Shown one piece after another: positions 11,690 to 19,542 of a DNA stretch of 64,000 nucleotides. The notes under the pieces were generated by a model. The model worked only from the letters and a program-made list of their open reading frames with translations. It did not search any database and was not told where the DNA came from. The position numbers and the translations under genes are program-made. The first letter of the stretch is position 1. Every line of letters begins with the position of its first letter. The stretch lies in the NCBI GenBank assembly GCA_002104985.1, contig MCGO01000013.1, forward strand, positions 589,320 to 653,319, written 5' to 3'. This DNA comes from Rhizoclosmatium globosum (taxonomy: Eukaryota; Chytridiomycota; Chytridiomycetes; Chytridiales; Chytriomycetaceae).

Positions 11690-14600
11690 ATGGGAAATAA
11701 GGAATCTAAACGTAAGTATTGATTGAATGGATGTGGTTTCAAGGATGGGACATTCAACTACCAAACAGTGCAACCACCTCGAAAGCCTCCTGCCACTGTA
11801 ACAAATGCACCAAGAGTAAGCTTATACGTTGACAAGGATCGTCAAGGAGCGGATCCAGTCAGTTTCAGTGCGGACTTGACTGCAATCACAGTTGATCAAA
11901 CAGTTCCAATTAAAGGTATTGATCTCAGCCATGCCTCGTTTGTATAAATCTCTAAGTTGTGTTTAGCTCAGAATAAGGACCAGGTTGTCGTTCCTGTCCG
12001 CCCGTTTGAAATGGAAGACGAGGAACAGCCAATTGCCCTTTCTGAACCAACAATGGCCTGCCTGAAAGAAGAAGTAACCTTCAGTCTTGTATTCTTGCGT
12101 AACAGTCATGCTGAATACATCGCTAGATCATCAAAACGTTCGACTTCCCCACAGATGGAACGATGCGAATCTACTATACGATGCCTCCTTCACAGGTTTC
12201 CAACCGCAAATTGTTGTCCCCAAGGGCAGTACTTTCCAATATTCTCAAGAGAGTCAAGAATCCGGAAACGGATCTGGTCTTTGACTTCCATTCTTTTGCC
12301 ATTGTGTCAGTTACAAATGAACAGGCAAACACTATGCCAACTGTCCTGGAAATTTCGGAGTTTGATATTGATGCGCTTAAAACGGAGGTGTGGTTTATAT
12401 TTTCCGTGATATTAATCTCATAGATAGCCCTTTAGATTATGAAGCAGTTTCAACTCCCGAATCAGGGGTTTACTCTTCATTACATCGACAGCAAAACTCA
12501 GAGGAAAGTGGCAGTTGATAAATCCGAGGTGCTTGAACGTGCGATTCTATCGTCTTCAGTACTTGTTTATGAGCTTGCAACTGGCTTCACCCCATTGTCG
12601 GTATCAAGTGGGGCGATTTCGTTGCAGGACAGTTTCCAACAGGACGCAAAATCCCGTCAGCAGTATGATATCTTTATCTCATACAACTGGGGTACAAAGA
12701 GTGAGGTTACGGCTCTTGTTGAGCAATTGAAGCTTTCGATGCCATCTCTAAAAATTTGGATGGACCACAAACAAATGCAGGGGAATATCTATTCTGCCAT
12801 GTCCGGTGGGATCTCGTCAAGCAAACTTGTTCTTGCCTGTTTGTCGAAAGGATATTTGGTATGTTGAATGAAATGATTCCACACTTATACTTATCTGTTT
12901 CAGGAATCGGTAAACTGTAATATGGAAATCAACTTCTCAGCTGACTTGAAGAAACCTATCATTCCCGCTTATTTTTTCGACGAAGGCGAAGATGTCACTG
13001 GCTACAAGCAATCCTATGGAGTTCCTTTTATGATTACGGCCGGATCGTTGTACTCTGATTTCAAAAGATATGATATCAACTCTCCAAAGTGGCAATCTGC
13101 TTTCTCTGTCCTTTGCAACGAGATACGACACGTTTTACATCCCGAGCCTATCGTCGAAGAAGTTACTTCAGATTCTCTTAAATTATGGCTGAATCCAGTG
13201 GACTTTGTCGACGACATTCATGCATATGCTTCAGAATATGTGAAAGGAACGCGAATGTGGGTTGTTGATGCACTAAACGACTGGGTCGACACCGACGAAC
13301 GGGCCATGTGGATGAACGGAGGAGCAGGAACGGGAAAATCATTGATCGCTTATAGTCTGTTGGTCAACCTTCCGGATACATACAAAGTTGGATCGATATT
13401 CTTTTGTAGACACAATGATGAACGGAAACGTGATCCTATCGTTCTTGTCGCCACCATGATTTGGAATCTCTACAGTTCTGTTGAGTCGAAGGAGTTCAGA
13501 GATCATATTGAGACGGAGATGAAGGCTGATAATGTCCGTGTCAAGCAAGAGAACAAACAGAGCATTCTTAGAGACCCTGTGTCTGCGTTCGAGCGTATTA
13601 TTGTCGAAGGTCTCAAGAAAGTATCTCCTCAAGAGAGAAAACTGTTGATTGTTGTCGATGCCTTGGATGAGCTGGATATTCTGACACGTAAATCGGTGTT
13701 GACGATTTTGACATCCAAGACATCTGAACTTCCAAGTTTTGTCAAACTCTTGACGACGGGCCGCCCCGAAAGCGATATTTACCACAGCTTGCAATCCTTG
13801 AGTCCATTTATTCTTAGTCCCTCAGCTGAGAATAACAAGGCCGATCTTGACATCTACATTCGCAGTAAAGTAGAAGCGATGTGGACTAGATTCAGACCTG
13901 AGTCCGATGTGCTAATTGAAAAATGCTTCACGCTTCTGTCGGAGAAAGCGGATGGATTGTTTATTTATGCGCGTACCCTTTGCGAGTATCTTCGCCAACA
14001 GTTTCTATCTCCGTTTGACGCGCTTGAAGTGATTTCAACGTTCACAATCGGACCAGACGGTGTTTACACGGCAATTTTGGATCGCGCTTTCCAAGATGCT
14101 TCAGAGGGAAAACTTAATATGTTTCGTCGCGTATTCAGCGTTATTTTCGGTGTTCAGAAGCCGCTGGGACTTTTGAGTCTCGTAAATGTTGGTAACTTGG
14201 CTGAAGGTGAGGCTGAAACTATAGTCGCTGAAGTGAGTCTATTGCGTTTATTTGTTTTGATGAACTCACACATGAATATAGTTACGCTCGGTTCTTAAAA
14301 TCGAGAATGGGGTTATCTCAGTCATCCACAAGAGTTTCAAAGACTATTTGACCGATACTACACGATGTAATCCATTGCATCACATCAAATCCATTGATTT
14401 TAGCCTCTCGAATCGTTGTCTCGAAATTCTCTGCTCAAACCTTCATCAAGATATGGGCCAAGCGAACAATGTTCAAGAATACTCAAAAGCAAAAGGCAGA
14501 GAGTCACCTTACTTTGCCGAAGATGTACAATATGCCCTCGAATATTGGTCAACTCACTTTGCGCTTGCTTTTCAAGATTCAACCATGTCACAAGCTCAAA

Positions 14601-16579
14601 TCGACGTTGCCCTTAACAGTCTCCACAAATTCTGTACATCGTCATTGCCTTACTACCTTGAATCTCTCCTCCTCCTTAACTCTCTGAACTCAGTATTCAG
14701 AGTTGTTAAAACTGTCACACCCTTCCTCCCCAGCAGCTCAACCTCTCTCAACCTCCTAACTGACCTCCAATTCATAGCAACAAATTTTAGATCGCAATTA
14801 TTGTCTAGCCCGCATCAAGTATACAGACATGCGCTGATAGCCGTGCCAACAGAAACGGAGTACTACAAATTATACTCACACCTTGCACCTGCGCGCTTGA
14901 TTCTCGGTGCTGAAGCCAACTGGGGTCCTAAAACATTTATGGGACATACAGGAACTGTACTGGCTGTCTTGATTGGACCGCACGGGGATGTGTTCTCTGG
15001 GTCACAGGACGGAACTGTTCGGTTATGGGACTTTGAGAGTGGGGAATGCTATCGAACATTTATGGGTCATTCTAAAGGTGTTACTTCAATTGCGTATATG
15101 CCTGATGGGTTTTTGGTCACTGGGTCGTTGGATGGAAGTGTAAAAGTTTGGAATATTGAAACGGGAGTTTGTGAGCATTCGTTAGTGGCGTCACTGGAAG
15201 AGGATGTTGAAGTTATGTCTGTTTGTGTGTCTGGAGATAGAGTTGTTTCAGGACACAAGGATGGTCATATTCGAGTCTGGGATTTAGAAACGCGAGTGGC
15301 TAGAACGTTGGAGGGACATTCGCAAATCAAAATTTGGCGCACCGTGAGAACTCTTGCTGCGTCGAAGTCTCTTGTTGTTTCAGGTGGCCACGATTCGTTA
15401 GTTAAAGTGTGGGACTTGGAGAGTGGCAGTTGTATCAGAACGTTTGATGGACATTCACAGCTGATTCGATGTGTCGTAATTGGTGATGACGGCGACACTA
15501 TTATATCATCGTCCGACGATAAGACGATCAAGATGTGGTCTCTACAATCAGGTCTATGCCTAAAAACACTTGAAGCTGACAGCGAAGTATATTCAGTGGC
15601 GTTATCGCACGATGGTTCCAGAATCGCAGCTGGCTGCGCGTCTCAGAACAAAATCTTTATTTGGTCAGCAGTCATAGGCGAAAAGCTTACAATACTCGAA
15701 GGTCACTCGTTGGAAGTTCGTGCACTTGCGTTCTCATCAAATGATAAGATTCTAGTTTCAGGTTCGCGTGATGACTCTGTGCGCGTTTGGAATCTTGACG
15801 CTGCTGAGTCCTGTCAACCTGTTACACCTAACGAATGGAAAAACATCGACCAAGCTGCAATTACCTGTCTCGCTGCATCATCGAAAGCTAAAATTGTTGT
15901 TTCTGGCTCATATGATGGACAAATTGACATTTGGTCAACGGAAACTGGGAAACTCTTGAAAACATTGAAACAGAACTGGGGATTCAAGAATGTTATCAGG
16001 GCGTTAGTTATATCGCCTGACGCTAAGCTGATTGCAACAGTAAACTATGAATGTGAAGTGTGTGTATGGGACTGGGAGAATGGGAAAAAGGTGTCATCAT
16101 GGAGACACAAGGGATACGTTCAAAGTGTCGGAGTTTCTGCTGATGGATTGACAATCGCATCAGCCGGTATTGATAAAGTAGTCAAAGCTCGAGTATTAAC
16201 AAAACAACCAAAATCTGCCGATGACGAATCGTCTTCGGAGGACGAAACGGCGAGTGAAAACAATCAGTTGATGAAGGATATAGCGCTTTCGGCAAAGGAG
16301 TTTATCGAGCAAGAAGAATATGTCGCAGTCGATTTCAAAACGATTCCCTTTGAAGGCGAATACAATCCGGTGTTTAGCAAACTAGGTATCGTGATACCTC
16401 CTGGATCAGAACGTCTGATGTTTGATCCCGAAGAATGGATTCTATTGAAAGACGGGAATCACCATGACCGACTATTTGATTCGCGAATGGAACGTACCGA
16501 TGCATCTGGAGACTTAATTTGCTGGACGCATCTTGACGACTACAAGATTTACGCTTTGGAATTAGTTTCAAATGAGTAA
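11690..16579 (+). CDS. TIR-NACHT-WD40 NLR-like protein with an N-myristoylation signal
   Basis: Seven exons: 11690-11711, 11769-11915, 11967-12088, 12127-12387, 12436-12858, 12904-14232 and 14282-16579. Phases agree throughout, giving about 1533 residues. It starts MGNKESK, fitting the Met-Gly-x3-Ser-Lys myristoylation pattern. Residues about 170-237 resemble a PB1/ubiquitin-like fold. A TIR domain follows at about 260-390 (YDIFISYNWG, LKIWMDHKQMQGN, KPIIPAYF), with Glu333 at the position of the TIR NADase glutamate. NACHT has Walker A GGAGTGKS at 464-471 and Walker B LLIVVDALDELD at 572-583. The winged-helix end reads VIHKSFKDYL. Nine or ten WD40 blades occupy about 985-1408 (VRLWDF, VKVWNI, IRVWDL and others). 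The last 120 residues are acidic, then unassigned. STAND proteins of this layout sense ligands through the repeats and signal through the N-terminus; a membrane-tethered immune or cell-death receptor is inferred. Confidence 0.92.
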
Positions 16580-17544: not shown

Positions 17545-18156
17545 CTATCGAGGCCTCTCGTATTCCACTGGTTTACTCTTCGTATTGTTGTCTTTTATTA
17601 GCACTGTTAATGAAACCCCTGAGATCTCAATAGATAATGAATTCGCATCTCTGGCATTTTCTCGCACACGTCGAGGAATAATATAATCCATACCAGGATT
17701 CGGAAACAGATTGAGTTTCGCGAGATTCTCGAGTTCAGCAATTTCATCTGGCAGAGAACCCGATAACCAATTCCTTTCTAACGTCAATTTCACGAGTTGC
17801 CGTAAGTGACCAATATCTGGGTGTATTTGTCCTGTGAGTCTGTTGTCACCGAGATACAAAGACCGAAGACTTGTGAGACGGTATAGAGCAAGTGGAATTG
17901 GGCCCGTGAGTAAATTAATATTCGCAATTAGGACTTCCAGGTTGCGCAAGTTCCCGATAGATTCAGGAATGAAACCAGAGAACTGGTTTCTGTCAATGAA
18001 GAGGAGGCTGAGGTGTGGGAAGGAACCAATCCAGTGTATGTGACCACTGAATTGGTTTTGAGACAGGTTGAGTATTTCGAGGTGTTTGAGTTGTGAGATG
18101 GATTCTGGAATGCGGCATTCATGAAGCTCGTCTTCCAGATCGTCTTCCATCTCCAT
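17545..18156 (-). pseudogene. C-terminal half of a split plant-type LRR protein
   Basis: About 203 codons with five or six leucine-rich repeats of the plant-type consensus LxxNxLxGxIPxxIGxLxxL, for example NQFSGFIPESIGNLRNLEVL and NRLTGQIHPDIGHLRQL. A short tail without an obvious membrane anchor follows. The repeats continue the register of the upstream frame at 18435-19262, so both are probably parts of one gene broken by the 18157-18434 insertion. The first residues come from a tandem GGAGATGGAAGACGA repeat, so the apparent ATG is probably not a real start. It could be a separate exon if the intervening DNA is spliced, but I see no convincing intron signals. Confidence 0.6.
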
Positions 18157-18434
18157 CCATTATCTCTTCTCGTCTTCCATCTCCATTGTAACTTATTCTG
18201 AGTAAAACTTCTTATTGATTTCAACTCTGGATTCGAACTACGGATGTTCACATCTGTTGGAGTACTCCCTTCTGGATAGACTACGGAACTGGTTGAGAGC
18301 ATAGAAGTTACAATTAACTAATAAGGTATTAAGAGTACACATATTAACAAAGCCCAACATCACAACCATTGTCCAAAAGGGGGGGGTTCGAGGGGGGTTT
18401 TTAGGGGGGAAGGAAGGGGGGGGCTCGTCCCCCC
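18157..18434. repeat. G-rich insertion splitting the LRR gene
   Basis: The segment lies between copies of CTTCCATCTCCA (18145-18156, 18175-18186 and 18454-18465). It contains a 10-bp inverted repeat ATTGTAACTT/AAGTTACAAT (18185-18194 and 18305-18314), then four G runs of 8, 6, 6 and 8 (18379-18423) and a C run (18429-18435). The inverted repeat could mark a small MITE-like or solo-LTR-like element, but no target duplication fits cleanly. Confidence 0.5.
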
Positions 18435-19262
18435 CTAATAATAGTGGCGCCCCCTTCCATCTCCACTTTGAATGGAGATCTTCTGGAATATCTTCCGGAA
18501 AATATAGGGTAGAATGGGTCCGTTGAAGCTGTTTTGGTGTAGGCGTAGCTCAGTCAAGGTTGTCAGTTTGCCGATTTCGGAGGGGACTGGACCTGAAAGG
18601 CGATTGTTGTTTAGATTGAGCAGAGTAAGCTGCTTCAAGGCAAACAGGTCAACTGGAATGGATCCAACGAAGTTGCAGTCTTCAAGCTTCAACTGAGTCA
18701 AGTGTTCCAACGAGCCAATTATGGATGGTATAGTTCCTGCATTCGGAACAATACCCGGAATCATGAGGCCAGTCAGTGATTGGAAACCCAGAGTGATTGT
18801 TTCGAGGGGTCCCTTTGGCGTTGTTCCAAACAGGCCTTTAAGGTCAACTGAAGCTACATTCGACAGGAACAAGTGAGCATATTCGGCTTGATAGTTCCCT
18901 GGCCACTTCAGGCAAGCAATGTTGTATTCAGCCCTTGGATCAGCAGCCAAAGTATCTGGTGACTGGTCGATTCGAGTTGAAGTGGTGTCGAGTGAGTGAT
19001 CGTAGCCAAAGAAAGCTTCCAAGTTCACAGCGACAAAGTGCCGATCGCTCAAGCAAATGTTGATCCAGCGACAAAGGCGACGGTGGCGCTGGGCCTGGTT
19101 TGGCGGCAGTAGCGAAAAGATGGTTTGGACAATCTCGGCTGGAAGACGTGTTTGGAGCGGACTTGTTGAACTGGGTGCTGGCAGTGGGTGCATGGCAAGA
19201 TGCGGTAGTGTTGGTAGTGATGCTGGCGGGAGAGACTGCCAAAGCTCACGGAGTTGGTCCAT
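18435..19262 (-). CDS. F-box-like/LRR protein, N-terminal part (truncated)
   Basis: A 275-codon frame starts at 19262. Residues about 38-75 (LPAEIVQTIFSLLPP, then RLCRWINICLSDRHFVAVNLEAFF) resemble an F-box-like segment. Residues about 165-260 carry plant-type LRRs (IPSIIGSLEHLTQLKLED, NNNRLSGPVPSEIGKLTTL). After NSFNGPILPYIF the LRR register ends, and the frame runs into a tandem repeat and a low-complexity G-rich stretch, stopping at 18435. The missing repeats are found in the downstream minus-strand frame at 17545-18156. Proteins of this kind may serve as recognition or ubiquitin-ligase adaptor proteins; the substrate is unknown. Confidence 0.65.
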   Translation of the reverse strand: MDQLRELWQSLPPASLPTLPHLAMHPLPAPSSTSPLQTRLPAEIVQTIFSLLPPNQAQRHRRLCRWINICLSDRHFVAVNLEAFFGYDHSLDTTSTRIDQSPDTLAADPRAEYNIACLKWPGNYQAEYAHLFLSNVASVDLKGLFGTTPKGPLETITLGFQSLTGLMIPGIVPNAGTIPSIIGSLEHLTQLKLEDCNFVGSIPVDLFALKQLTLLNLNNNRLSGPVPSEIGKLTTLTELRLHQNSFNGPILPYIFRKIFQKISIQSGDGRGRHYY

Positions 19263-19542
19263 GCCACAATCTTAGCTTCGGATTTGATTTGAAACCAATC
19301 AGATAAATGACCCGATCCGCAGCATATAATATTGAAATAAAAAAAGAGCTATTGGAAACAGAAAAGGCACGGTTGAATGAGTATCGGAGTTTCTATAAAA
19401 ATGTCTGAAGTTGACAATCTTCTTGCATCTTGATCGAATATTAATCAAGAATTTCCATTTTGATTTACTCGTTTATTTCTCTCCATGCAAAAGCGCCACG
19501 TTATTGGTGAATCTCGTTACAGTTTTTCCGCTTTCGCAAAAA

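Follow-up and report, generated by a model that had tools for sequence, protein, structure and literature searches.

A spliced TIR-NACHT-WD40 gene with a predicted tandem ubiquitin-fold front, and its family of predicted receptors, in the chytrid Rhizoclosmatium globosum

Can a single fungal gene join a TIR domain to a NACHT ATPase and a WD40 propeller, and if so, what would its product do? The question is raised by positions 11690-16579 (forward strand) of a 64,000-nucleotide stretch of Rhizoclosmatium globosum DNA (hereafter the window), which forms the end of a contig of 653,319 bases (C35) in an assembly of 56.9 Mb. An earlier note on this DNA had described a membrane-tethered receptor at this position, with an MGNKESK start, a TIR, a NACHT and WD40 blades joined by seven phase-consistent exons. 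The sequence-based prediction of a single TIR-NACHT-WD40 gene is confirmed: the seven exons join in phase into a spliced model of 1528 amino acids with zero internal stops, and the order is MGNKESK start, predicted tandem ubiquitin-fold pair, TIR, NACHT and WD40 (Table 1). The ubiquitin-fold pair and the expanded family with exchanged sensors were absent from that note.

The same six introns were obtained when the first 780 residues were re-aligned to the window with a spliced aligner. Residues 105-1528 of the model are matched letter for letter by P0001, the 1424-residue R. globosum protein on deposit, so that public annotation likewise has TIR, NACHT and WD40 in a single gene; the annotated start of P0001 lies too late and misses exons 1-3 (window 11690-12164) together with part of the first ubiquitin-fold domain. 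A 98% identical protein of R. hyalinum carries MGNKESK (its annotation also fuses a gene that, by eye, adjoins upstream in the window as well), and an equal domain order is seen in proteins of R. hyalinum, Rhizoclosmatium sp. JEL0117 and Physocladia obscura. Three copies are present in the assembly (the window on C35, C403 and C28; alleles or duplicates), each with 1528 codons and no stop, and all six introns are kept in each of them, three introns differing by 1-2 bases. The recurring introns, the intact copies and the relatives speak against bacterial contamination, which is rejected, as is the reading that a TIR gene and a NACHT gene simply lie next to each other.

The three copies also allow an estimate of selection. 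The ratio of replacement to silent substitution rates (dN/dS, Nei-Gojobori) is 0.18, 0.13 and 0.11 for the whole gene, 0.13, 0.11 and 0.02 for the TIR and 0.13, 0.10 and 0.08 for the NACHT, and in the ubiquitin-fold region (residues 61-230) we counted 16, 6 and 15 silent against 1, 0 and 1 replacement changes. Purifying selection acts on the whole gene and is tightest in the ubiquitin-fold pair; TIR and NACHT are constrained alike. A second, distant TIR match lies on the opposite strand near all three copies (C28:65788-65964, C403:114811-114996 and C35:585980-586156, the last about 3.2 kb left of the window).

The TIR assignment rests on profile and structure. Pfam TIR_2 matches residues 258-345 with an E value of 2.7e-13 (50.9 bits against a cut-off of 28), and structure prediction returns a TIR fold. 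The glutamate that the earlier note had aligned with those of NADase TIRs does align with them, though it is residue 328 (in NCNME) in our model and not 333, which belongs to a different numbering. In the structure model Glu328 (model residue 530) lies inside the helix 527-536, the place of the alpha-C glutamate in TIR NADases. A search with the TIR of the window as a single sequence gave RPS4 as best match (E 1.8e-4), with Glu328 on the E of CVREL; with the family TIR profile, the CRISPR-associated TIR protein Cat1 was matched at E 7.6e-9, the E of CWDEL standing in the same column. Both of these glutamates we take to be the catalytic ones. RPS4 is an NADase, and the non-enzymatic adaptor MyD88 shows Q in this column of the profile alignment. 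Within the family the glutamate is found in 37 of the 39 loci that reach the column and is invariant in a six-member TIR alignment whose members are 36-46% identical to the window. The remaining two loci read P (C102, at a contig end) and R (C26:57k, whose 98.6% identical sister reads E). A structure match to the RPP1 resistosome (7dfv) spans the TIR and nucleotide-binding region (model 454-786, 255 residues) at a root-mean-square deviation of 18 A, so the domain order agrees and the domain arrangement does not. The deposited Physocladia obscura protein P0014 skips the TIR glutamate stretch, probably through an error of the gene model.

In the nucleotide-binding region the NACHT family PF05729, named in the earlier note for a domain search, stays below its cut-off (23.0 against 26.7 bits); it is NPHP3_N, of the NACHT class, that is found at residues 435-607 (E 1.8e-22, 80.7 bits against a cut-off of 24.8). 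Walker A (GGAGTGKS) and Walker B (LLIVVDALDE) are both intact, as had been claimed, which places the region among the NACHT-class STAND ATPases. Nine WD40 stretches were found with Pfam, in line with the nine or ten blades of the earlier note. With TIR_2 at the N-terminus and WD40 at the C-terminus of one spliced frame, the protein has the layout of an NLR. HET (PF06985) does not appear in the Pfam listing for residues 1-978, which runs to E 1 and names six families.

In front of the TIR, residues ~63-232 are predicted to form a tandem ubiquitin-fold pair: the beta-grasp was found twice by structure prediction, and the pair is backed by a second structure model with residue ranges. Its placement in a family is a tie between ubiquitin, PB1 and FERM-type structure matches, the second domain tying with PB1 domains, which polymerise in p62; no one family stands out when ubiquitin, ISG15, PB1, RA and FERM-F1 are weighed against each other. 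The window's own front sequence brings no ubiquitin-fold Pfam family over its cut-off. Across 11 family members, 17 Pfam families were matched at E 1 or better; these include the ubiquitin-fold families DWNN (4 members, best E 3.9e-4), PB1 (2), Ubiquitin_IARS1 (2), UN_NPL4 (1) and Crinkler (1), but also non-ubiquitin families such as GRHL1_C (3 members), RecQ_Zn_bind, SUB1_ProdP9 and others. Against PDB sequences the front profile gave RecA fusions on top (E 2.3e-4), a match that we take as spurious, followed by the U11/U12 25 kDa protein (E 0.015). Linear di-ubiquitin, ISG15, OASL and talin F0-F1 reach TM-scores to the target of only 0.31-0.55, so the inter-domain angle differs or is poorly predicted; unlike in these proteins, the pair of the window gene precedes a TIR. 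It probably docks partners, helps clustering or restrains the TIR.

Table 1. Features of the TIR-NACHT-WD40 gene, in window positions; residues are those of the 1528-residue spliced model.
Feature	Position	Strand	Basis
Whole coding region	11690..16579	+	Spliced model; P0001 identity 105-1528; two further intact copies
Seven exons	11690-11711, 11769-11915, 11967-12073, 12127-12387, 12436-12858, 12904-14232, 14282-16579	+	Spliced model
Exon 1, MGNKESK, N-myristoylation-type start	11690..11711	+	Sequence, family pattern
Ubiquitin-fold domain 1, residues ~63-152 (introns inside)	11984..12306	+	Boundaries set in this analysis
Ubiquitin-fold domain 2, residues ~153-232 (intron inside)	12307..12594	+	Boundaries set in this analysis
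TIR, residues 254-400 (intron 12859-12903 inside)	12658..13143	+	
Glu328	12925..12927	+	HMMER alignments with RPS4 CVREL and Cat1 CWDEL
NACHT (NPHP3_N) ATPase region, residues 435-770	13246..14302	+	Pfam NPHP3_N, E 1.8e-22
Walker A	13318-13341	+	GGAGTGKS, residues 459-466
Walker B	13642-13671	+	LLIVVDALDE, residues 567-576
WD40 propeller, residues ~986-1400	14948..16192	+	Nine WD40 stretches

Is the gene on its own? TIR matches occur at 83 places (47 loci) of the assembly and NPHP3_N at 60 loci, and at 34 of these 60 the family TIR stands 97-416 nucleotides upstream. From 59 aligned loci, 44 scored above 200, and removal of four (the NACHT-only loci C57:633747 and C260, and two tandem-TIR loci without NACHT on C201) leaves a family of 40 loci sharing the front end, 26 of them distinct at 93% nucleotide identity; C24 stops short of the glutamate column, hence the 39 loci read there. 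Membership of an expanded set, raised earlier as a question for a copy-number survey, is thereby established. Phase-0 introns recur in the loci that span them: after residue 92 in 26 of 36, after 179 in 32 of 40, after 320 in 34 of 40 and after 763 in 21 of 23. In a tree of 29 rows, sequences of Physocladia and of other Rhizoclosmatium interleave with those of R. globosum, so the family seems to be older than both genera.

Behind this common front end the sensor is exchanged. WD40 repeats are found in the window gene, P0010, C188, C369:3821 and C13:623671, ankyrin repeats in P0013, C57:153974, C57:145479, C2, C35:23k and C224:94k, and in C135 (L093, C135:91400-93800) Sel1 and SAM follow the TIR-NACHT in frame. 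Three of these rears were assigned with Pfam (one ankyrin, one Sel1-SAM and one WD40) and the remainder by eye, and the in-frame junction to the NACHT exon was checked in C57:153974 and C135. One front end with exchanged sensors would fit a receptor repertoire that feeds a single output.

Relatives were also sought among deposited proteins. Of 6248 candidates in a search with residues 90-500, nine reached E 0.001 or lower; eight of them belong to Rhizoclosmatium or Physocladia, and the ninth (P0009, JGI) has TIR_2 and NB-ARC and is 26% identical over 35%. An alignment of ubiquitin-fold pair plus TIR, compared with proteins of ~200-640 amino acids, gave none of 5568 candidates at E 1e-5 or better. 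With the front-end profile at least 16 proteins reached E 1e-10 or better (best 7993 candidates scored): ten from Rhizoclosmatium or Physocladia, five ENA proteins of 525-609 amino acids and one from Pseudogymnoascus, whose listed domains include the NACHT class and no TIR. Further TIR_2 matches lie outside the NLR family (L042-L045, L047-L049, L052-L053, L064 and L067-L068), several in repeated or paired loci, and C201:155624-156370 and C201:163163-163861 show two TIR matches each with no NACHT match nearby. HET domain matches coexist with the TIRs at 17 places of the genome (for example C20:93259-93672).

The MGNKESK start had been read as a myristoylation pattern, and the family speaks for that reading: a start of the form MGxxx[ST] lies upstream in 17 of the 40 loci, or 17 of the 23 that have at least 690 nucleotides of upstream sequence, where mononucleotide shuffles predict about 1.5 over all 40 loci (many of the loci with an MG start are sisters). 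The letters vary between groups and the pattern is kept (MGNKESK/MGNKQSR, MGNYASR/MGNYISR/MGNYIST, MGGNQSK/MGGEQSK and MGQKQSI); MGNKQSR is found in P0002 and MGNKESK in P0012 of R. hyalinum. An MG start whose sixth position holds a small residue, conserved among the relatives, suggests N-myristoylation. Two distinct ankyrin paralogs, with tails otherwise unlike, end in CaaX boxes: KKCVLM at C57:153974 (L092, C57:158100-160500) and its sister C26 (L099, C26:68900-70100), and CCVVM at C2 (L095, C2:572600-574400). The survey covered ankyrin rears with located ends (those of C57:240k and C224:94k were not located), and the end of the C35:23k paralog has no CaaX box. The boxes CVLM and CVVM suggest prenylation of these ankyrin paralogs.

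What, then, would the protein do? The likeliest role, and on balance a probable one, is in our view that of an NLR anchored to a membrane, with TIRs that cleave NAD+ on clustering. This agrees with the general logic of NLRs, in which sensing falls to the propeller, switching and oligomerisation to the NACHT, and NAD+ cleavage to the TIRs once packed. The gene product would belong to the NLR (STAND) class and act as an inducible immune receptor inside the cell, seated on a membrane. At rest, the WD40 propeller would keep the NACHT in its ADP state until a ligand binds, which might come from a parasite or be a self protein that has been damaged. Exchange for ATP would let several receptors cluster at the membrane, their TIRs would pack together and cleave NAD+, and loss of NAD+ or an ADP-ribose-type product would lead to cell death or arrest. 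The lipid anchor would place this cleavage at the membrane, and the ubiquitin-fold pair may serve as docking site, bait, clustering device or brake. As a whole, the earlier interpretation is supported.

Several observations weigh against this role. The WD40 region shows dN/dS values of 0.61, 0.14 and 0.21 among the three copies, and positive selection, as in an arms race, was not seen in the WD40 sensor of the window gene by this measure. The first 60 residues are loosely kept among the copies (0-1 silent, 2-4 replacement changes), and an MG start is missing from six of the 23 loci with enough upstream DNA. It is missing from C26, yet this locus is 99.8% identical to C57:153974 (whose MGTQLTQ is weak), and from C1, yet that one is 97% identical to C188 bearing MGGNQSK. 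Finally, some TIRs with this glutamate perform other chemistry, and TIRs can be mere scaffolds.

The rival that survives best, though we judge it unlikely, takes the TIR as a non-enzymatic assembly module: clustering of the NACHT would recruit another TIR or a ubiquitin-fold partner, and the glutamate would be structural. It draws on MyD88 as an adaptor among the closest profile matches, on the TLR TIRs that rank first for the Physocladia model (whose TIR is annotated without the glutamate stretch) and on the further TIR genes available as possible partners; the conservation of the glutamate throughout nearly the whole family, its absence from MyD88 itself and the best single-sequence match to the NADase RPS4 argue for an enzyme instead. 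An enzyme might nonetheless make another nucleotide signal (2',3'-cyclic nucleotide monophosphate, or nucleic-acid cleavage) for a dedicated receptor rather than deplete NAD+, as the fold match to plant TIRs and the description of such TIR activities (PMC10197012) would allow; no receptor or partner gene for it was identified in this analysis, and we hold it to be improbable. A shade less probable still is self/non-self recognition in the manner of the Podospora HET-NACHT-WD40 proteins, with TIR in place of HET: the effector-NACHT-WD40 order is common to both, HET is given as a remote relative of TIR in PMC4986451, and C369:3821 (L090, C369:1500-3900) and P0010 have WD40 repeats that are near-identical to each other by eye, as in the Podospora family according to PMC12881547. 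The repeats of the window gene itself, however, look diverged by eye, and its WD40 is without an excess of replacement change. Nor are such chytrids known to fuse hyphae. Lastly, misassembly or misreading might have fused a TIR gene to a NACHT-WD40 gene; this reading could appeal to the deposited start at residue 105 and to a gene model that rests on DNA rather than RNA, but is scarcely credible in view of intron positions recurring in paralogs, three intact copies under purifying selection and an equal domain order in R. hyalinum, Rhizoclosmatium sp. JEL0117 and Physocladia obscura.

With NAD+-cleaving TIRs on a membrane-anchored NLR as the preferred role, how does the gene compare to known systems? 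Like the plant TNLs RPS4 and RPP1 it has a TIR, then a STAND ATPase, then a repeat sensor; these proteins carry NB-ARC and leucine-rich repeats (LRR) where the window gene has NPHP3_N/NACHT and WD40, so it is not a TNL, and the tandem ubiquitin-fold pair in front is a feature of the window gene. It shares its order with Podospora HNWD but is no member of that class either, the effector being TIR_2 and not HET. SARM1 and TIR-1, with an ARM-SAM-TIR order and no NACHT, are unlike it. Amphioxus TIR-NACHT and TIR-NB-ARC-WD40 proteins, named in PMC2575513, make the same domain joins; they are animal proteins, likened here by description and not by sequence, and no ubiquitin-fold domain is mentioned in the passages that name them.

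In the literature, TIR in NLRs of Chytridiomycota is reported in one sentence of PMC9815663, and the window gene is of that kind; the same paper reports TIR-like effectors in Pezizomycotina. A small group of fungal TIR-NLRs is mentioned in PMC10197012 and the occurrence of TIRs in fungi in PMC7075850, and HET domains are treated as distant TIRs in PMC12881547. The 2014 fungal NLR survey PMC4986451 reports none from chytrids. A 2026 preprint on TIRs across eukaryotes (PMC13142454) describes its main source as nearly devoid of fungal TIRs, those present all coming from R. globosum, which is named in its methods; PMC11291939 names R. globosum JEL800 for gene transfer, the word TIR being absent from its accessible part. 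A literature search that covered few subscription papers found no account of the ubiquitin-fold pair, of lipid anchors, of copy number or of exchanged sensors. TIR-NLRs of Chytridiomycota and TIRs of R. globosum are already briefly in print, but fungi have so far yielded hardly any such receptors.

Around the gene, the window contains a plant-like LRR gene at 17545-19271 (reverse strand) with an F-box-like start by eye. A link to it was rejected, though a similar gene adjoins the C135 paralog: its family has at least 250 matches in the genome (150 of 964 candidates scored), so adjacency means little. An RNA family scan of the window found two tRNAs and nothing else, and a search for the LSDAT channel gave no match anywhere and is hence uninformative.

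Tentatively, and with more doubt than confidence, we suggest that Chytriomycetaceae may have independently evolved an arsenal of plant-like TIR receptors. Each of these would carry a lipid anchor, then a ubiquitin-fold module, then an NADase TIR; the module would mimic poly-ubiquitin or ISG15, or polymerise in the manner of PB1, and would act as bait, switch or clustering device. Two routes would lead to the membrane: N-myristoylation, chiefly for the WD40 branch, and CaaX prenylation for some of the ankyrin branch. The R. globosum family shows what at least part of the reported fungal TIRs are: an expanded set of receptors that share a front end and have exchangeable sensors. With it, three questions can be tested in a single saprotroph: whether genuine TIR NADases operate in fungal immunity, what relation HET domains have to the TIRs that occupy an equal receptor slot, and what chytrids defend against.

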